Of a stretch of DNA of 64,000 nucleotides, positions 191-39,443 are shown in pieces. The notes below the pieces were generated by a model. It did no database searches, was not told where the DNA came from, and saw only the letters and a program-made list of their open reading frames with translations. A program made the translations under genes and the position numbers. This DNA comes from Rhodovibrio salinarum DSM 9154 (lineage in GTDB: Bacteria; Pseudomonadota; Alphaproteobacteria; Kiloniellales; Rhodovibrionaceae). The first letter of the stretch is position 1. Every line of letters starts with the position of its first letter. The stretch is from assembly GCF_000515255.1 (NCBI RefSeq), contig NZ_KI911559.1, forward strand, positions 3,049,660 to 3,113,659, given 5' to 3'.

Positions 191-1168
191 ATGACCCAGG
201 CGCAGGCCTTCTGGACCACCGCCAAAATGCAGGGCGAATTGCGCGGCGAGACGCTGCCGCCGCCGGGCGACGACGAGGTGCTGGTTCGCGCCCTCTACAG
301 CGGCATCAGTCGTGGCAGCGAGGCGCTGGTATTTGCCGGCCACGTCCCGGAGAGCGAACGCACGCGCATGCGCTGCCCCTTCCAGGCCGGCGATTTCCCA
401 TTTCCGGTCAAGTACGGCTACGCCAGTGTCGGACTGGTCGAGCAGGGCCCGGCGGCCCTGCAAGGCCAGGTGGTGTTCTGCCTCTATCCGCATCAGGACC
501 GCTACGTCGTCCCGGCCGATGCCGTGATCCCATTGCCCGACGACCTGAGCACCAAACGCGCAGTGCTGGGCGCGAACGCGGAGACGGCGCTGAACGCGCT
601 ATGGGACGGCGCCCCGCGCGTGGGCGACCGGATCGCGGTCGTCGGCGCCGGCGTCGTCGGCTGCCTGGTCGCGGCGCTCGCCGCGCGCATCCCAGGCACG
701 CAGGTACAATTGATCGACGTCGATCCGAAAAAGGAGACGACGGCGCGCGTGCTGGACGTGCCGTTCGCCACCCCGGACAACGCCACGGGCGGTTGCGACC
801 TGGTGGTCCACGCCACGGGCACGGGCGCGGGGCTCGGCACCGCGATCGCTCTCGCCGGGTTCGAGGCAACGCTGCTGGAGCTGTCCTGGTACGGGGCCGG
901 CGACGTGCCAGCCCCACTTGGCGGCGCATTCCATTCCCAGCGATTGACGCTACAGTCGTCCCAGGTAGGCGCGGTATCGTCCGCCCGCCGGGCGCGCTGG
1001 ACACACAAGCAGCGTCTGACGAAAGCACTTGAACTGCTCCGCGATCCCATGTTCGGCCATCTGGTCAGCGGGGAAAGCCGGTTCGACGAGCTGCCGCGAA
1101 CCATGCAAACCTTGGCAGGGGACCCACCGGCGGGCACGCTGTGCCACCGGATCGCCTACCCCGCGTGA
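191..1168 (+). CDS. MDR-family (zinc-type alcohol dehydrogenase-like) oxidoreductase
   Basis: This 325-residue protein belongs to the medium-chain dehydrogenase/reductase family. A GroES-like N-terminal half (about residues 15-130) carries the GISRGSEALVF segment. A Rossmann half follows, with the nucleotide-binding motif VVGAGVVGCL near residues 150-160. I cannot find the catalytic zinc cysteine or the four-cysteine structural zinc lobe of classical alcohol dehydrogenases, so it is probably a zinc-less member that reduces or oxidises a small intermediate with NAD(P)H. It is the first gene of a + strand operon: 48 bases later comes a PTPS-like gene, then a glycosyltransferase and a methyltransferase. 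Family assignment is firm. The substrate is unknown and is inferred only from context to be a pterin- or pyrimidine-like compound. Confidence 0.85.
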   Translation: MTQAQAFWTTAKMQGELRGETLPPPGDDEVLVRALYSGISRGSEALVFAGHVPESERTRMRCPFQAGDFPFPVKYGYASVGLVEQGPAALQGQVVFCLYPHQDRYVVPADAVIPLPDDLSTKRAVLGANAETALNALWDGAPRVGDRIAVVGAGVVGCLVAALAARIPGTQVQLIDVDPKKETTARVLDVPFATPDNATGGCDLVVHATGTGAGLGTAIALAGFEATLLELSWYGAGDVPAPLGGAFHSQRLTLQSSQVGAVSSARRARWTHKQRLTKALELLRDPMFGHLVSGESRFDELPRTMQTLAGDPPAGTLCHRIAYPA

Positions 1169-1216
1169 CGCCAGTCCCCGCCGCTCACGCCTGATAGACG
1201 GGACGAACGGAAAAGC

Positions 1217-1630
1217 ATGTTTTCAGTCACCGTGCGCGACCGCTTCATGATCGCCCACTCCTTCCGGGGCGAGACCTTTGGCCCTGCGCGCAACCTGCAT
1301 GGCGCCACCTACGTCGTGGATTGCGAGTTCCGCTGCCCGACCCTGGACCGTGACGGGCTCGCCGTCGACATCGCCGCGGCAAGCGACCTGCTGAACGAGG
1401 TCGTCGGCGGCCTGCACATGCGCAACCTCGACGAGGCCAGCGAGTTCGAAGGCCAGAACACGACGACCGAGTTCCTGGCCAAAACGATCTACGACCGTCT
1501 TGCCTCAAGGATCGAGCACGGTGCGCTCGGCCCCGAGCAAGGCGGCCTGGTCGCGCTGAAGGTCACGCTGGGGGAATCCGACATCGCCTGGGCCAGTTAC
1601 GAGGGTCCTCTCCCGGCCACGTTGGGCTAG
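1217..1630 (+). CDS. Divergent 6-pyruvoyl-tetrahydropterin synthase / QueD-like protein
   Basis: A 137-residue single-domain protein with the T-fold layout of PTPS/QueD enzymes, which convert 7,8-dihydroneopterin triphosphate. Recognisable blocks are FMIAHSF (first zinc histidine), NLHGATY (normally HGHxY), LHMRNLDE (normally LDHxxLN) and NTTTEFLA (normally NPTxExxA). Against the E. coli QueD pattern as I remember it, the second histidine of HGH is alanine, the upstream catalytic cysteine is absent, and the Asp-His pair is His-Met. Classical activity is therefore doubtful. The gene stops 19 bases before a glycosyltransferase gene, in the same operon. Either the chemistry has changed or the protein binds a pterin-like ligand without the usual lyase activity. 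Family call is firm; function is open. Confidence 0.85.
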   Translation: MFSVTVRDRFMIAHSFRGETFGPARNLHGATYVVDCEFRCPTLDRDGLAVDIAAASDLLNEVVGGLHMRNLDEASEFEGQNTTTEFLAKTIYDRLASRIEHGALGPEQGGLVALKVTLGESDIAWASYEGPLPATLG

Positions 1631-1649
1631 GCCGGAGGAAGCAGCGCCG

Positions 1650-2699
1650 ATGGCCGATCTCCACTTCGTCGTCCCAGGCAACCCGGACACCCATACCGGC
1701 GGCTTCATCTACGACCGCCGAATGGTGGAAGAGCTGCGCAAGCTGGGGCTGACGGTCGAATTGCACAGCCTGCCCGACGGTTGGCCCTATCCCGGCTTTC
1801 AGGCCGTCGACGCTGCCGAGCACCTATTGGCGCGTTTGCCCGACGGCGCGCGGGTGATCATCGACGGGCTGGCGCTCGGCGTGCTGCCGCGCCTTGCGGA
1901 GCGGGAAAGCGAACGTTTGCGGCTGATCGCGCTGGTGCACCACCCGCTGGCGGAAGAGACCGGCCTCGACGCCGGCGAGTCCAGGCGTCTGTTCGAAAGC
2001 GAGCACACGGCGCTCAGTCACGTCCACCACGTGATCGCGACCAGCGCGTTCACGGCGCAAGGGTTGGTCGACTACGACGTCACGCAGGAGCGCATGAGCG
2101 TGATCCCGCCGGGGGTGGAATCGCACGAACTGGCGGAGGGCAGCGGGCGTGCCGCGCCGGCGCTGCTGTGCGTCGCCTCCGTGACGCCGCGCAAGGGCCA
2201 TGACGTGTTGCTGAACGCGCTGTCGCTCCTGACCGCACGGCCCTGGACACTCGACCTCGTCGGCAGCGAGACGATGGACACCCGCCACGCCCAGCAGATG
2301 CGTCGGCTGGTAGCGGAGCTCGGCCTGACTTCGCGCGTCATCTTTCGCGGCGAGCTGTCGGGCCGCGCGCTGGATGCGGCCTATCATACCTGCGATCTGT
2401 TCGTGCTCGCGTCGCACTACGAGGGCTACGGCATGGTCCTGACCGAAGCGGTCGCGCGCGGCCTGCCGGTGGTCGCCACCGCCGGCGGCGCGGTGCCCGA
2501 CACCCTGCCGGAAGGCGCAGGCTTGCTTGCCCCACCGGGCGATATCGAAGGGCTGGCGGCCGCGCTGGACCGGGTGCTGGGCGCACCGGAGCTGTTCGCC
2601 CAGTTGGCCGAGGGCGCCCGGGAGGCCCGCGAGCGCCTGCCAAGCTGGGCCGACAGCGCACGTCAATTGGCGAGCGATCTGGAACAGGTCGGCCCCTGA
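1650..2699 (+). CDS. Glycosyltransferase family 4 protein
   Basis: A 349-residue GT-B fold glycosyltransferase. The N-terminal acceptor-binding half begins with a GGFIYDRRMVEELRKLG block near residues 13-30. The donor half holds ASVTPRKGHDVLLNAL and the GT4 nucleotide-sugar motif EGYGMVLTEAVARGLPVVAT (E-x7-E). Retaining transfer from a nucleotide sugar is the family mechanism; donor and acceptor are unknown. A strong Shine-Dalgarno GGAGGAA (1634-1640) lies nine bases before the ATG. The stop codon overlaps the ATG of the downstream methyltransferase by one base, implying coupled translation. Next to a PTPS-like gene, one possibility is a pterin glycosyltransferase, by analogy with cyanobacterial biopterin glucosylation; this is inference. 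Confidence 0.9.
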   Translation: MADLHFVVPGNPDTHTGGFIYDRRMVEELRKLGLTVELHSLPDGWPYPGFQAVDAAEHLLARLPDGARVIIDGLALGVLPRLAERESERLRLIALVHHPLAEETGLDAGESRRLFESEHTALSHVHHVIATSAFTAQGLVDYDVTQERMSVIPPGVESHELAEGSGRAAPALLCVASVTPRKGHDVLLNALSLLTARPWTLDLVGSETMDTRHAQQMRRLVAELGLTSRVIFRGELSGRALDAAYHTCDLFVLASHYEGYGMVLTEAVARGLPVVATAGGAVPDTLPEGAGLLAPPGDIEGLAAALDRVLGAPELFAQLAEGAREARERLPSWADSARQLASDLEQVGP

Positions 2700-3589
2700 T
2701 GGTGGGGGACGCGTTCGAGGCCAATTGGCTGGACCTGCGCGAGCCGGTCGATTCCGAATCCCGCGCCCGCCCGTTGGAACGGCTACTGACTCAACATCTG
2801 CGCGGGCGCGAGCGCCTGGAAATCACGGATCTGGGAGCGGGTACCGGCAGCAATCTGCGCCATCTGGCCCCGCGCCTGACAGACTCGCGCGGCGTCCAGC
2901 AGCATTGGACCCTGCTGGATGCCGATACCGCCTTGCTGAGCGACGTGCCCGCCCGCACCCGTAGCTGGGCGCAGGCGCGCGGCTATACCGTCGTCGATCA
3001 GAACGAGGGCCTTGAGATCACGGGCCGGGCGGAAGCGCCCTTCACCCTCGACATCGCCCCCCGGCAAGCGAACCTTCAGGCCGACCCCTTGCCGGTCGCA
3101 CGGGCCGATCTGGTCACCGCCTCTGCCCTGCTCGATCTGGTGTCTCGGGATTGGCTACAGGCATTCGCCCAGCGGCTGTGGGAGATCGGCGCGGCGGCGC
3201 TGATCGCGCTCAGCTACGACGGCCATATCGCCTGGCAGCCACAGGTCGCGGGCGACGAGGAGGTGATGCGCTTGGTCAATCAACACCAACGCGGCGAGAA
3301 GACCTTCGGCACCGCGCTGGGGCCCGACGGCGGTGCTGTCGCGGCGGCGGAACTGGAAGCCGCCGGCTTCGAGCTCGAGACCGCGCAAACCCCCTGGCGC
3401 CTGGGCCCAAGCGATCAGGCCCTGCAGCAGCACTTGCACGCCGGCTGGGCCGCCGCGGCAAGCGAGACGGCGCCCCACCGCGCCGAGGCGATCCGCGCCT
3501 GGCTGGAACGGCGGATCGACCTGCTGGAGAGCGGTCAGGGCCAGGTCACCGTTGGCCATCTGGACGTGCTGGCACTGCCACCGGGTTAA
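2699..3589 (+). CDS. Class I SAM-dependent methyltransferase-like protein
   Basis: A 296-residue protein whose SAM-binding motif I reads ITDLGAGTGSNLRHL near residues 40-55. An acidic strand-2 position follows (LLDADTALL), and a motif IV region ARADLVTASALLDLV lies near residue 135. It is likely a cytosolic methyltransferase acting on the product of the preceding enzymes, but no substrate-specific motif is visible. It is the last gene of the operon, joined to the glycosyltransferase by a one-base overlap, and is followed by a GC-rich stem-loop. Confidence 0.85.
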   Translation: MVGDAFEANWLDLREPVDSESRARPLERLLTQHLRGRERLEITDLGAGTGSNLRHLAPRLTDSRGVQQHWTLLDADTALLSDVPARTRSWAQARGYTVVDQNEGLEITGRAEAPFTLDIAPRQANLQADPLPVARADLVTASALLDLVSRDWLQAFAQRLWEIGAAALIALSYDGHIAWQPQVAGDEEVMRLVNQHQRGEKTFGTALGPDGGAVAAAELEAAGFELETAQTPWRLGPSDQALQQHLHAGWAAAASETAPHRAEAIRAWLERRIDLLESGQGQVTVGHLDVLALPPG

Positions 3590-3635
3590 TGCTCGGTGGC
3601 CTGTCGCGGCGGTGCTCCGCGGCACCAGCAGACAT

Positions 3636-3665
3636 TGCCCCTCTACCCGCCAGGGCAGAGGGGCA
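3636..3665. terminator. GC-rich stem-loop between convergent operons
   Basis: TGCCCCTCT (3636-3644) and AGAGGGGCA (3657-3665) form a perfect 9-bp stem with an inner CCC/GGG pairing. It sits between the convergent methyltransferase and aldo/keto reductase genes, where a bidirectional terminator is expected. There is no clear T tract. Confidence 0.5.
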
Positions 3666-3684
3666 CGGACTGTTTCCGTCTCTC

Positions 3685-4689
3685 TTAGGCAGCTTTCTCA
3701 TCGCGGGCCGGGGGTGCCATGAACTCCGGACCAACCGGATCGGTCACGGTGTCGGCCACGATGCGATCGATTTCGCTCAGGTCGTCCTGAGTGAGTGTGA
3801 TGTCGTCAACATCGGCCAGGGCATCCAGCTGATCCGGCCGGCGTGCGCCCCACAGCGCGACGCCCACACCCGGCTGCGCCAGCACCCAGGCGAGCGCCAG
3901 GTGGATCGCCCGCTTGCCGAACCGCTCCTGGGCGAAGGCGTCCAGCTTGTTGACCGCCTCGACATACTGCGGGAACCGCGCGGCCTGGAACTTCGGGTCC
4001 GCATTGCGCAGATCGTCGCCCTCGAACGTCTGATCCGCCGTCATCTTGCCGCTCAGCAGCCCACGGCACAAAGCGCCGTAGGTCAGGGTCGTCAGCCCCT
4101 GCTCGCGCACGTACGGCAAAACGTCATTCTCGATGCCGCGCTCGAACAGGTTGTAGGGCGGCTGCACGACGCTGAGCGGTGCCTCCTTGCGGAAGCGATC
4201 CAACTGCTCGGGCGAGAAGTTGGAGACGCCGATCGCGCGGATTTTGCCGGCCTGCAGCGCATCCTTGAGCGCGCCGGCGGTCTCTTCCACCGGCACGTTC
4301 GGATCGGGCCAATGCACCTGCTCGATGTCGATCACATCGGTCTGCAGGCGCTGCAAGCTGTCGTCGATCTCTTGGCGGATGCGCTCGGGCCGGGCATCGC
4401 GGTAGGGCTGCGTGCCCGACCAGTTCAGCCCGCACTTGGTCGCCAGCACCACCTGTTCGCGCCGACGGCGCTCCCGCAGCGCCTCGCCGACGAAACGCTC
4501 GCTGGTGCCCATGCCATAGACCGGTGCGGTATCGACCAGGCTGATGCCCCGGTCGACAGCACTTTGCACGGTACGCACCGACTGTCCCTCGTCGGTACCG
4601 CCCCACATCCAGCCGCCGATCGCCCAAGTGCCAAGACCGATGCGCGTCGGCTGCAAATCGGTGCCTGGAATACGCGTGGTTGCCACCAT
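3685..4689 (-). CDS. Aldo/keto reductase
   Basis: A 334-residue (beta/alpha)8 NADPH-dependent reductase. The N-terminus has RIGLGTWAIGGWMWGG. The catalytic Asp-Tyr pair is in SLVDTAPVYGMGTSERF and the lysine in ATKCGLNWSG. The active-site histidine is at QVHWPDPNVP, and the cofactor-binding C-terminus has IGVSNFSPEQLDRF followed by later segments. It reduces aldehydes or ketones; no specific substrate can be read. A strong Shine-Dalgarno (AGGAGG) lies upstream. It is 118 bases downstream of, and co-directional with, the RibD-like gene, so it may be the tail of that operon. It is convergent with the + strand operon. Confidence 0.93.
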   Translation of the reverse strand: MVATTRIPGTDLQPTRIGLGTWAIGGWMWGGTDEGQSVRTVQSAVDRGISLVDTAPVYGMGTSERFVGEALRERRRREQVVLATKCGLNWSGTQPYRDARPERIRQEIDDSLQRLQTDVIDIEQVHWPDPNVPVEETAGALKDALQAGKIRAIGVSNFSPEQLDRFRKEAPLSVVQPPYNLFERGIENDVLPYVREQGLTTLTYGALCRGLLSGKMTADQTFEGDDLRNADPKFQAARFPQYVEAVNKLDAFAQERFGKRAIHLALAWVLAQPGVGVALWGARRPDQLDALADVDDITLTQDDLSEIDRIVADTVTDPVGPEFMAPPARDEKAA

Positions 4690-4806
4690 GATCGGAGAGT
4701 CCTCCTTTGATCGCGGTTGCCTCTAGCGTCCAGGGGTACATGTGCGCTGCGCAACGGGGCTTCGCAACCGCAAGAAACCGGCACCGTCAGAACTACAGCC
4801 TGCGGC

Positions 4807-5595
4807 CTAGCCCCGCAGATCGCAGTCGAACAGGGTATCGGGGGACATCGCGAAGGTCCGCATGGGCGGCCGCCGGGCCTCCGACAGACGGGCGATTTCC
4901 GGCAAACTGACCGCAGCGCGGCCCGAGCCGATGATCAACGGCGCAACACAGATGTGCAGCCGGTCGAGAAGCTCCGCCGCCAGGAAGCGGGAGACGGTGA
5001 CGCCACCGCCCTCGATCAGAACGTGATGCAGGCCACGCGCATGCAGATCGGCCAGGAGCGCGGCCGGATCGTAGCCATCCGGGCCGGCATCGAGCGCCGC
5101 GACCTCGGCCGCGCCCATAGGGACGTCGACGTTGGCGCCGCGATAGACCAAGGTCGGCGCCTGCCGGTCCTGAAACAGACGGTGGTCGGCGGTCAGCTGG
5201 CCGCGGCTATCGATCACGATACGCATCGGGTTGTCCCCGGCGCAGGCCCGTACGGTCAGCTGCGGATCGTCGTGCAGCACCGTCCCCGCGCCGACGACCA
5301 CCGCGTCGACCAGCGCGCGCAAGCGGTGCAGATGGGTGCGATTCGCCTCGCCGGTGACGTAGTAGCTATCACCACCGGTGGTCGCGATCCGCCCGTCCAA
5401 GCTCTGCCCCAGCTGGCCGATCGTCAGCGGCCCGTCAGCCATTCGGTCGATCAGCGGCTGGTGCAGGGACACCAGCTCCTGCGCGGCGCTCGTGCGGCCG
5501 GGGGCGATCACCTGGTGCGGCCGCCCGGCGCGGGCGTTGGCGGCGGCATCCAGCAACGCGGGCCAGGCACGTTCCTGCGAACGACTGCTGGTCAC
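4807..5595 (-). CDS. RibD C-terminal-domain (pyrimidine reductase / DHFR-like) protein
   Basis: A 262-residue protein with the RibD_C reductase domain from about residue 55 onward: GQLGQSLDGRIATTGG, then GAGTVLHDDPQLTVR, then HVLIEGGGVTVSRFL. In riboflavin synthesis this domain reduces the ribosyl group of a diaminopyrimidine phosphate to ribityl with NADPH. The N-terminal deaminase domain of full RibD is missing, replaced by about 50 residues without a recognised motif. The start is a GTG that overlaps the stop of the creatininase-like gene by four bases. A reductase of this kind beside an ArfB-like amidohydrolase and a PTPS-like protein suggests a branch from GTP-derived pyrimidines. Confidence 0.9.
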   Translation of the reverse strand: MTSSRSQERAWPALLDAAANARAGRPHQVIAPGRTSAAQELVSLHQPLIDRMADGPLTIGQLGQSLDGRIATTGGDSYYVTGEANRTHLHRLRALVDAVVVGAGTVLHDDPQLTVRACAGDNPMRIVIDSRGQLTADHRLFQDRQAPTLVYRGANVDVPMGAAEVAALDAGPDGYDPAALLADLHARGLHHVLIEGGGVTVSRFLAAELLDRLHICVAPLIIGSGRAAVSLPEIARLSEARRPPMRTFAMSPDTLFDCDLRG

Positions 5596-6422
5596 GACCA
5601 GCTCCCGCCGGCACCGTCCAGCGGTCCATCGCGCAGGTTGGCGAGCGGGAAGCGCGCGACCTCCTCCACCAGTTCCGACAGGCAGCGGCCTACGTGCCGG
5701 ACCATCCGCTTGCCCTTCTCCGCCTGCGCCTGGGTGGCGTCGCCGACCACGCCGGCCGGGTTCATGTCCTGCGCGGTCCAGCCGAAGGCGATCGGGCCTT
5801 CGGGACCCAGATGGCGATAATCGGCGGCCATCTGCAGCGACAGCGGCTCGAAGTTGTCCAGCGCTTCGGTGCGCACCAGATCGGGGCGCAGGTACAGCAT
5901 CATCGACGTTTCGACCGCGCCGCCGTGAATGCCGTGGTCAAGCTCCTCGTCGTCGAACAGGTCATGCGGGACGCCGAAAGCGAAATAATTCGCCTTGACC
6001 GCCAGCATGCCGTGCGCACGGCGCAGGTCGAGCGCGACGATGTCGGCGATCTGCGGTTGACCGCCGTGGGTATTCAGGAAAATCAGCTTGCGCACGCCGG
6101 CCGCCGCGACACTTGCCCCCAGCTCGCGCCACACAGGGATCAGCGTCTCAGACGACAGCGCAAGCGTTCCCGGATAGGCCGAATGCTCGCCACTGTCTCC
6201 GACCGGCAGGGCGGGCAGCACCAAGAGAGAGGCGTCGTCGTCCAGCTGGCGGAGCGTCTCCGCCACGATCCCCTCGGCGATGCAGGCGTCGGTGTAGAGC
6301 GGCAAGTGCGGGCCGTGCTGTTCGATCGCACTGACCGGCAGCAGCGCGACAGTGCGCTCCGGGTCGACCTCGCCGAAGTCTTCGGTGGTCAGCTCGTGCC
6401 AATAGCCGCTGGGCAAGGTCAT
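5592..6422 (-). CDS. Creatininase-family amidohydrolase (ArfB/MftE-like)
   Basis: A 276-residue member of the creatininase family. Metal-binding motifs are visible: SAIEQHGPHLPLYTD near residues 30-45, FLNTHGGQPQIADI near residue 120, and GIHGGAVETSMML near residue 168. The family includes creatinine amidohydrolase, the ArfB deformylase of archaeal riboflavin/F420 synthesis, and MftE peptidase. The neighbouring RibD-type reductase favours an ArfB-like deformylase on a formamidopyrimidine, but this is inference from context. Both ends overlap the neighbouring genes by four bases, so translation is coupled to PPK2 upstream and the reductase downstream. Confidence 0.92.
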   Translation of the reverse strand: MTLPSGYWHELTTEDFGEVDPERTVALLPVSAIEQHGPHLPLYTDACIAEGIVAETLRQLDDDASLLVLPALPVGDSGEHSAYPGTLALSSETLIPVWRELGASVAAAGVRKLIFLNTHGGQPQIADIVALDLRRAHGMLAVKANYFAFGVPHDLFDDEELDHGIHGGAVETSMMLYLRPDLVRTEALDNFEPLSLQMAADYRHLGPEGPIAFGWTAQDMNPAGVVGDATQAQAEKGKRMVRHVGRCLSELVEEVARFPLANLRDGPLDGAGGSWS

Positions 6423-7297
6423 GCGGGTTTCGCGTCCGTCTGCACCTCCTCGGGCACGTGCAGGCCCAGGCGGCTTTCGGCCATTCCGGCAACTTCCGGG
6501 TCCAGGCGTGGTGGCGTCATCTCCAAGCCGTCGGACAGGCCCTCAAAGATCAGCTGCATCGCCCGCACCCGGGCGTATTTCTTGTCGTCGGCCGGAATGA
6601 CGTGCCAGGGCGCACGTGTCGTCGAGGTGCGCTGAAGCATTTCCTCGATGGCCGCCTCGTAAGGCGCGCGCAGTTCCCAGTTGCGCAGGTCTGCCACGCC
6701 CAGCTTCCAGCGCTTCACCGGATCGTCCAGCCGCTTCTGGAAGCGGTGCAGTTGCACGCGCGGCGAGACGTTCAGGAAGATCTTCACCAGCCTTACGCCG
6801 TCATTCAACAGCATCTCCTCGAACTGTCGAATTTCCTCGAAGCCGCGTCGCCAGTCGACTTCCGGCGTCAGGCCCTCGACCCGTTCAACCAGAACGCGCC
6901 CGTACCAGGACCGGTCGAACACCGCCATCGCGCCGGGATCGGGCAACAGCGGCCAGAAGCGCGCCAGCCAGTGCTTGTTCTGCCATTCAGCTGTCGGGGG
7001 ACCGATCGGGTGGAAGCGCGCCGCGCGCGGCTCCAGCACAGCAGCCATCCGGCGGATGATCCCGCCCTTGCCGGACGCGTCCCAGCCTTCCATCACCACC
7101 ACCCCACGCGAGCGATGGGCGAGCTGGGCCAGTTGCAAGCGGCGCAGATCGTGCTGGCTTTCGATCAGCGCCTGGGTATAGCCACGGGAATCGTCGCGCG
7201 CGTGCCGGGTCGGCAGGTCGGCGAAGCGCGTCTCCGGTCCCGGAACCTCCTGAACGAGGTCGTGCTCGCGCCGCGTGTCACCCGACCCGCCCGTCAT
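6419..7297 (-). CDS. ppk2: Polyphosphate kinase 2 family protein
   Basis: A 292-residue single-domain PPK2. The Walker A motif is VMEGWDASGKGGIIRRM near residues 68-84. The Walker B/lid region is AVFDRSWYGRVLVERVEG near residues 124-141. The C-terminal domain has DPVKRWKLGVADLRNWE and the nucleotide pocket PWHVIPADDKKYARVRA. PPK2 enzymes transfer phosphate between polyphosphate and nucleoside mono- or diphosphates. The gene overlaps the dksA-like gene upstream and the creatininase gene downstream by four bases each. A polyphosphate-driven nucleotide kinase inside a putative nucleotide-derived biosynthetic operon is unusual. A separate ppk1-ppx block lies at 48424-52212. Confidence 0.95.
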   Translation of the reverse strand: MTGGSGDTRREHDLVQEVPGPETRFADLPTRHARDDSRGYTQALIESQHDLRRLQLAQLAHRSRGVVVMEGWDASGKGGIIRRMAAVLEPRAARFHPIGPPTAEWQNKHWLARFWPLLPDPGAMAVFDRSWYGRVLVERVEGLTPEVDWRRGFEEIRQFEEMLLNDGVRLVKIFLNVSPRVQLHRFQKRLDDPVKRWKLGVADLRNWELRAPYEAAIEEMLQRTSTTRAPWHVIPADDKKYARVRAMQLIFEGLSDGLEMTPPRLDPEVAGMAESRLGLHVPEEVQTDAKPA

Positions 7298-7647
7298 CGT
7301 GCGGCGCTTTCGGCGCAGTCGATGCAGGTCGGCGTCGCCGGATCGACCTCAAGGCGCTTGCGGCCGATCTCCTCGCCGCACGTGACGCAGGCGCCGTACT
7401 CGCCTTCCTCCAGACGCTTGAAGGCAGCCTGGATTCGAGTCAGCTCCAGCTGTCGCCGACGCTCGGCGGCCTTGGACATCTCCTGCCCCTGGATTGCGTC
7501 AATTCGGCTCAGACGCCCTTGGGTCGTCTGGTCGAGTTCGACCGTCTTCCGGGCTTCGGTGCCGCTCTCAGACACCTTTTCCAGCTCCGCCTTGCGCTGT
7601 TCCAGCAACTTGCGGAAGTACGCCGTATCGATCTCCGGTTCGTCCAT
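7294..7647 (-). CDS. DksA/TraR-family C4 zinc-finger protein
   Basis: A 117-residue protein with an N-terminal coiled coil (about residues 8-70, rich in Glu, Lys, Arg and Leu) and a C-terminal zinc finger. The cysteine pairs are in ACVTCGEEIGRKRLE and TCIDCAE, the C4 pattern of the DksA/TraR/YbiI group. Members bind the RNA polymerase secondary channel and modulate initiation, although many short ones are uncharacterised. It heads the - strand chain with ppk2, the creatininase and the RibD-type reductase. It could tie expression to the stringent response, or may simply be co-transcribed. Confidence 0.92.
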   Translation of the reverse strand: MDEPEIDTAYFRKLLEQRKAELEKVSESGTEARKTVELDQTTQGRLSRIDAIQGQEMSKAAERRRQLELTRIQAAFKRLEEGEYGACVTCGEEIGRKRLEVDPATPTCIDCAESAAR

Positions 7648-39045: not shown

Positions 39046-39066
39046 GCGCAGAAGACCATCGCGACC

Positions 39067-39096
39067 TTGAATTTACGGGCGCGATGACGCATGTAT
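39067..39096 (+). promoter_or_regulatory. Candidate tmRNA promoter
   Basis: TTGAAT (39067-39072) and ATGTAT (39091-39096) are 18 bases apart, placing a start near 39100, immediately before the first stem of the acceptor piece. Only moderate consensus match. Confidence 0.35.
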
Positions 39097-39098
39097 GG

Positions 39099-39443
39099 AA
39101 GTGCCCGGTCGCTCCGGGTGATGGTGCTGAACACCTCACTAACTACTCGTACTGGACCCGGGGGCAGTACCCGGCGGCTCCACCAGACACGCCGGCGCCG
39201 AGCCTTCAAGGGCGCGCCGGCCTCCCTGGGGCCGAAACAGGCTCGACAGGCGGGAAAAGGTGCGGTTTGTACCCGGCATGGTACCGCCGTTATCGGGCCA
39301 TTAGAGAGTTGCGAACGATAACGCTGCTCCGGAGATGGCCGTCGCTGCGTAAGCAGCGAAGGTGAACTCCACCTTTAATCCCAACGGCGTTAGCTGCCGT
39401 TGGTGGGGTTCCGGCGGGGCCCCTCGCAACAGAATGCCCCGCC
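39099..39443 (+). ncRNA. ssrA: Transfer-messenger RNA, circularly permuted two-piece type
   Basis: The gene is permuted as in Caulobacter. The acceptor piece comes first and ends in GGCGGCTCCACCA (CCA end at 39185). It is preceded by a T-arm-like stem CCGGG/CCCGG with a seven-base loop. After a spacer (39186-39227), presumably removed, the coding piece begins GGGGCCGAAACAGGCTCGAC at 39228. GGGGCCG pairs with CGGCTCC of the acceptor piece in seven pairs, one of them G-U. The tag frame (39311-39352) reads ANDNAAPEMAVAA then TAA; the stop lies in the loop of the helix CGCTGC/GCAGCG. A hairpin CCAACGGC/GCCGTTGG (39381-39403) follows. The outer ends are estimates; 39413-39443 may be the terminator stem. 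Confidence 0.92.

Follow-up and report, generated by a model that had tools for sequence, protein, structure and literature searches.

A cluster conserved across phyla around a PTPS-IV protein of Rhodovibrio salinarum and a candidate pathway branching off a riboflavin-type start

Introduction

The PTPS-IV proteins, a subfamily of COG0720 defined by the signature FGPAQ, were recorded in 2017 by AGeNNT together with their neighbours PF00925 and PF01872 (PMC5445326). AGeNNT calls PF00925 FolE2 (PMC5445326), whereas the Pfam family PF00925 is GTP cyclohydrolase II (GCHII). A second relevant system is that of BrbF, a creatininase-family formamidase that removes the formyl group from the formylamino intermediate of riboflavin synthesis in Sinorhizobium and Brucella and is needed for riboflavin in both (PMC9478397). 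The present study concerns a locus of nine genes in a 64,000-nt stretch of DNA (hereafter the window, meaning the whole stretch), which sits at 3.05 Mb of the 4.18-Mb chromosome of Rhodovibrio salinarum DSM 9154. The locus encodes a PTPS-like protein orthologous to SCO6650 (PDB 3D7J; E 4e-45). SCO6650 reportedly lacks PTPS activity.

A first-pass annotation had tentatively read the nine genes as a single, undescribed pathway acting on GTP-derived compounds. The word undescribed holds in part. The PTPS-IV subfamily with its GCHII and RibD_C neighbours is in print (PMC5445326) and the structure 3D7J is solved, but no description of the whole cluster, including the lipid-type genes reported below, was found in the literature searched.

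Results

The genes for an MDR dehydrogenase, the PTPS-IV protein, a GT4 glycosyltransferase, a SAM-dependent methyltransferase (MT), a RibD_C reductase and, in part, a creatininase-family amidohydrolase are one conserved unit across phyla. In a class-level sample of 190 genomes, with MDR as the query, an orthologue was found in 23 genomes (own included), each with a single match at E 1e-46 or better and with no weak background. MDR, PTPS, GT4 and MT stand in that order in 20 of the 22 other alphaproteobacterial loci, the two exceptions being a contig cut and an MDR gene alone. A stand-alone RibD_C gene lies near this core in 17 of the 22, in varied positions and orientations. As a separate observation, the MDR orthologue of locus L044 (G035:C41) contains an internal TGA and has no PTPS, GT4 or MT gene nearby; this is possibly a decaying cluster.

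In a wider sample, named genomes were scanned with the PTPS alignment, which gave at least 587 relatives; the best 80 loci, with neighbourhoods of about 10 kb, were counted. These loci span Alpha-, Beta- and Gammaproteobacteria, Actinobacteria and Gemmatimonadota, with Variovorax, Halomonas, Salinicola, Marinobacter, Thioalkalivibrio, Streptomyces, Actinoplanes, Actinomadura and Nocardiopsis among the taxa. MDR and PTPS are present in all 80, GT4 in 79, MT in 62, RibD_C in 53 and creatininase in 38. The 1.6-Mb genome G161 holds creatininase, MDR, PTPS, GT4, MT, RibD_C and GCHII contiguously, with a second GCHII elsewhere. Within Streptomyces, 204 of 393 species have PTPS-IV, almost always as one copy. 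The first-pass annotation had left it to a comparison of genomes whether its families are neighbours elsewhere; for the core they are, across phyla.

The window RibD_C is a reductase only, unlike the housekeeping RibD of the rib operon, which has both deaminase and reductase. It carries the conserved SLDGRIA and EGG motifs of pyrimidine reductases (RibD_C/ArfC). A dedicated RibD_C is found in 18 of 20 cluster-bearing genomes and in none of 7 cluster-free genomes (Fisher p 4e-5, shared ancestry ignored).

A GTP cyclohydrolase had been expected as a pathway member, possibly to the left of base 1 of the window. The membership is borne out by a GCHII gene beside the core in 41 of the 80 loci; the place is not, as that region instead holds genes for YceI, an SDR and a photolyase-related protein, among others. 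The only zinc-motif GCHII found in the R. salinarum genome is at 395 kb, about 2.65 Mb from the cluster, and has the canonical residues including Tyr105 (E. coli numbering). The rib operon elsewhere in the genome encodes a full RibD and RibBX (2.634 Mb; L053 8118-9359, minus strand). Since the GCHII domain of RibBX is without the zinc cysteines, the 395-kb GCHII is, judging by these residues, probably the sole active one of the genome. Strong GCHII matches occur in cluster-free genomes too. The 395-kb enzyme may therefore be a housekeeping one that feeds both routes.

The window PTPS-like protein (Pfam PTPS, 84.9 bits) belongs to PTPS-IV by its signature. Among 102 orthologues the signature reads FGPAQ in 93 and FGPAR, as in the window copy, in 8, and HGA is present in 101 of 101 matched. 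The window protein differs from rat PTPS (1b66) at the catalytic Cys, the Asp-His pair and one zinc His. HGA stands for HGH throughout about 100 orthologues, and the set that marks PTPS/QueD (the Cys of CxxxHGH, Asp-His and three zinc His) is thus broken. E120, the C-terminal Glu, and T84 and E85 are invariant in 18 PTPS-IV sequences; we take E120 to be the substrate-anchoring Glu and T84/E85 to be a TxxE-type pterin-binding motif. PTPS-IV has lost the catalytic residues of PTPS and kept the substrate-binding Glu. Queuosine or biopterin chemistry was considered for PTPS-IV and rejected on account of the replaced catalytic and zinc residues.

The metal-ligand motifs EQHGPHLP..TD, N.HGG and ETS are intact in the window creatininase. 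Loss of Tyr105 is the mark of a formylamino-releasing GCHII, and SCO6655, a Streptomyces GCHII that has Met there, reportedly stops at or releases the formylamino product. In actinobacterial clusters, GCHIIs with Met, His or Gln at this position have a creatininase neighbour in 19 of 19 cases, the Tyr types in 0 of 8. In proteobacteria, many cluster-linked GCHIIs read HSAC, not HSEC, in the zinc motif (for example L068 14529-15668 and L051 13911-15068), and for every one of them a creatininase orthologue is present in the locus or genome. Actinobacterial and proteobacterial creatininases formed separate lineages in a tree, which did not settle the branching at the proteobacterial base. The deformylation step may thus have been recruited twice. 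In the actinobacterial clusters (Actinoplanes-type, for example L078, and Streptomyces-type, for example L118), RibD_C and creatininase mostly exclude each other; both are present in L117 and L119 only.

De-novo clustering of the neighbours gave two unexpected partners, which Pfam assigned to the CDP-alcohol phosphatidyltransferases (hereafter N0) and to LPG_synthase_TM, a flippase-like family (hereafter N1). By profile, N0 is present in 70 of the 80 loci, N1 in 56 and YceI in 22. The N0 motif DxxDGxxAR...GxxxDxxxD is invariant in 15 sequences. N0 was found in 11 of 23 cluster genomes and in 0 of 9 others (Fisher p 0.013, shared ancestry ignored), and in other alphaproteobacteria it adjoins YceI, RibD_C or GCHII even when distant from the core. 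A membrane protein of 520-790 aa, by eye similar to LTA-synthase-type sulfatases, lies near the core in 12 of the 80 loci (for example L097 15406-17199 and L063 5278-7614); its representative had no Pfam match.

All nine open reading frames of the first-pass annotation are present, in two converging sets of four and five genes, and the family calls hold (Table 1). The set of nine has to be divided, since three of its genes are not conserved neighbours. The aldo/keto reductase (AKR) gene was near the core in 4 of the 80 loci and is missing from the same-family locus L253; PPK2 is likewise missing from L253 and was not near the core in other loci; the DksA-like gene is present in L253 and was not found elsewhere. 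The junctions between RibD_C, creatininase, PPK2 and DksA are 4-bp overlaps, as expected of an operon.

Table 1. Genes of the R. salinarum locus (positions in the window)
Feature	Position	Strand	Remarks
MDR dehydrogenase, zinc-less, BchC-like	191..1168	+	core member
PTPS-IV protein (T-fold), SCO6650 / PDB 3D7J orthologue	1217..1630	+	core member
GT4 glycosyltransferase	1650..2699	+	core; Glycos_transf_1 108.6 bits (Pfam)
SAM-dependent methyltransferase (MT), subfamily of its own	2699..3589	+	core; DLxxGxG motif conserved
Aldo/keto reductase (AKR)	3685..4689	-	outside conserved set; Pfam 253.5 bits
RibD_C reductase, dedicated, without deaminase domain	4807..5595	-	core; Pfam 140.1 bits
Creatininase-family amidohydrolase, candidate formamidase	5592..6422	-	accessory, varies by lineage; Pfam 233.3 bits
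PPK2	6419..7297	-	co-directional, outside conserved set; Pfam 234.0 bits
DksA/TraR-like	7294..7647	-	kept in same family only; zf-dskA 39.0 bits (Pfam)

Profiles gave only weak BchC and threonine-dehydrogenase matches for MDR and matches below threshold for MT. The AF2 models had pLDDT values of 92 and 95.8, respectively, and matched the MDR fold and SAM methyltransferases; fold searches with both models returned generic family matches and nothing more specific. At the zinc-ligand positions of MDR, the alignment read by eye showed no conserved Cys or GHE; SGISRG(T/S)E and KYGY are found there, so that Ser and GY replace the catalytic ligands of zinc-dependent alcohol dehydrogenases. The closest solved relatives of the GT4 protein include the MshA-type D-inositol-3-phosphate glycosyltransferase, PimB and PimA. 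Relatives that act on inositol phosphate or phosphatidylinositol would be loosely in keeping with a ribityl-phosphate acceptor.

YceI is the gene immediately to the left of the window; it diverges from MDR, and its product has an apparent signal peptide (by eye). The block left of base 1 (L003 8639-14246) encodes DUF1365, a cyclopropane-fatty-acid synthase-like protein, DUF3833, an NTF2-like protein, an SDR and the photolyase-related protein. It is kept next to the core in L253 and not elsewhere. The photolyase-related neighbour was considered as a consumer of the product and rejected, as it adjoins the core in no family other than this one and in 0 of the 80 loci. No known riboswitch was detected within the window. 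An ordinary alphaproteobacterial permuted tmRNA gene is located at 39063-39443 of the window.

Discussion

The six genes MDR, PTPS-IV, GT4, MT, RibD_C and creatininase are, in our judgement with somewhat better than even probability, the local copy of a widespread orphan pathway that branches off a riboflavin-type start. The idea of a single GTP-derived pathway thus survives for these six genes and for GCHII in kind, and falls for AKR, PPK2, DksA and the place of GCHII. The probable product of the pathway is a pteridine-like molecule made from GTP, methylated and carrying a sugar, and perhaps lipid-linked in most lineages. From the families and residues we infer the following order of reactions. 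GCHII, here the 395-kb copy, would open GTP and yield a pyrimidine ribonucleotide of the formylamino or diamino type; any formyl group left by GCHII would be taken off by the creatininase-family enzyme. The stand-alone RibD_C would then reduce the ribosyl to the ribityl chain ahead of any deamination, because it has no deaminase domain, and the 2-amino group would stay. PTPS-IV may bind the 2-amino-4-oxo ring; together with the zinc-less MDR it would build or reshape a pteridine-type product. GT4 would then add a sugar and MT would methylate it.

In most lineages, N0, the flippase-like N1 and often the periplasmic YceI point to coupling of the polyol-phosphate product to a lipid and to its transfer across the membrane. 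A lipid-linked product is therefore plausible in most lineages; in this genome N0 and N1 were not detected. A bolder form is a membrane-anchored pteridine or pyrimidine glycolipid in bacteria of several phyla, in which ribityl phosphate is joined to phosphatidyl by N0, receives the GT4 sugar and a methyl group and is flipped outward. This is a speculative proposal, which we regard as rather doubtful.

Several facts weigh against the proposed pathway. N0 and N1 were not found in the R. salinarum genome at E 1e-10, so that lipid coupling cannot be essential to every version. Most Streptomyces-type loci have no RibD_C, nor do the genomes G096 and G175. Tyr105, lost in the 19 actinobacterial cluster copies, is kept in R. 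salinarum and the proteobacterial GCHIIs despite the presence of creatininase, which makes the deformylation role less clear there. The R. salinarum GCHII may also serve riboflavin only.

It is worth noting that the same genes allow other interpretations. RibD_C and creatininase could be auxiliary riboflavin enzymes, a RibD paralogue and a BrbF-type formamidase, with MDR, PTPS, GT4 and MT in a separate pathway. The requirement for BrbF in Sinorhizobium and Brucella (PMC9478397) is in line with this, as are the creatininase homologues found on their own in several genomes. Nevertheless, the R. salinarum genome has a full rib operon with a complete RibD elsewhere, RibD_C follows the cluster across genomes and adjoins it in several orientations, and PTPS, GT4 and MT are not needed for riboflavin; we consider this interpretation unlikely. 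A conventional pterin of the biopterin or 6-carboxypterin type, made by PTPS/QueD chemistry and glycosylated like the cyanobacterial pterin glycosides, would account for the combination of PTPS, reductase and glycosyltransferase, the set of genes expected for pterin glycosides. It is very unlikely, because about 100 orthologues have other residues in place of the catalytic Cys, Asp and His and of a zinc ligand, and the conserved cyclohydrolase neighbour is GCHII.

Catabolic enzymes are known in the creatininase and MDR families, and the locus might accordingly break down, salvage or detoxify GTP-derived or flavin-like pyrimidines. GT4, MT, N0 and the flippase-like partner are typical of synthesis and export, and such a route is highly improbable. 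A review ties PTPS-IV to archaeal synthesis of coenzyme F420, citing unpublished work (PMC5041015), which would make the cluster a source of an F420 precursor. CofH (TIGR03551) is absent from the R. salinarum genome and was above the cut-off in just 3 of the 22 cluster-bearing genomes searched. The F420 interpretation is therefore rejected for R. salinarum, and we give it hardly any weight in general. That unrelated genes are adjacent by chance does hold for AKR, PPK2 and DksA. For the core this is refuted by its retention in several phyla despite changes of orientation and by its contiguity in the 1.6-Mb genome, and as an explanation of the locus it has next to no probability.

Roughly half of the Streptomyces species sampled, and many proteobacteria, carry the marker gene of the pathway. 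Branching off a riboflavin-type start, this pathway would add a new branch to the GTP-derived cofactors. It would give PTPS-IV, with its solved structure, a function and would correct its annotation as a queuosine or biopterin synthase. Should the lipid genes take part in it, the product would carry a lipid head group of a new class; the glycolipid, if real, would found a new class of lipids with redox or light activity.

Comparison with known systems

One close counterpart is the Streptomyces SCO6650-SCO6655 type. The cluster of a Streptomyces genome in which PTPS shares 99% identity with SCO6650 comprises N0, MDR-PTPS-GT4-MT-N1, creatininase and a GCHII with Met at the Tyr105 position. In comparison, the window version has RibD_C and a creatininase of the other lineage and is without N0, N1 and a linked GCHII. 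The first steps resemble riboflavin synthesis in the fungal and archaeal order (GCHII or ArfA, ArfB, ArfC), with GCHII, a formamidase-type creatininase and a deaminase-less reductase. Unlike a riboflavin locus, the cluster has no deaminase, lumazine synthase or riboflavin synthase, and contains PTPS-IV, MDR, GT4 and MT instead; the rib operon is separate. BrbF belongs to the same family as the window creatininase and catalyzes the reaction proposed for it, but serves riboflavin (PMC9478397). With the phosphatidylinositol mannoside and mycothiol-type pathways (PIP synthase, PimA, MshA), the cluster shares a CDP-alcohol phosphatidyltransferase near an MshA/PimA-like GT4, which would be a shared mode and not membership. 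In contrast to those pathways, the lipid genes were not detected in R. salinarum, and the head group would be derived from GTP and not from inositol.

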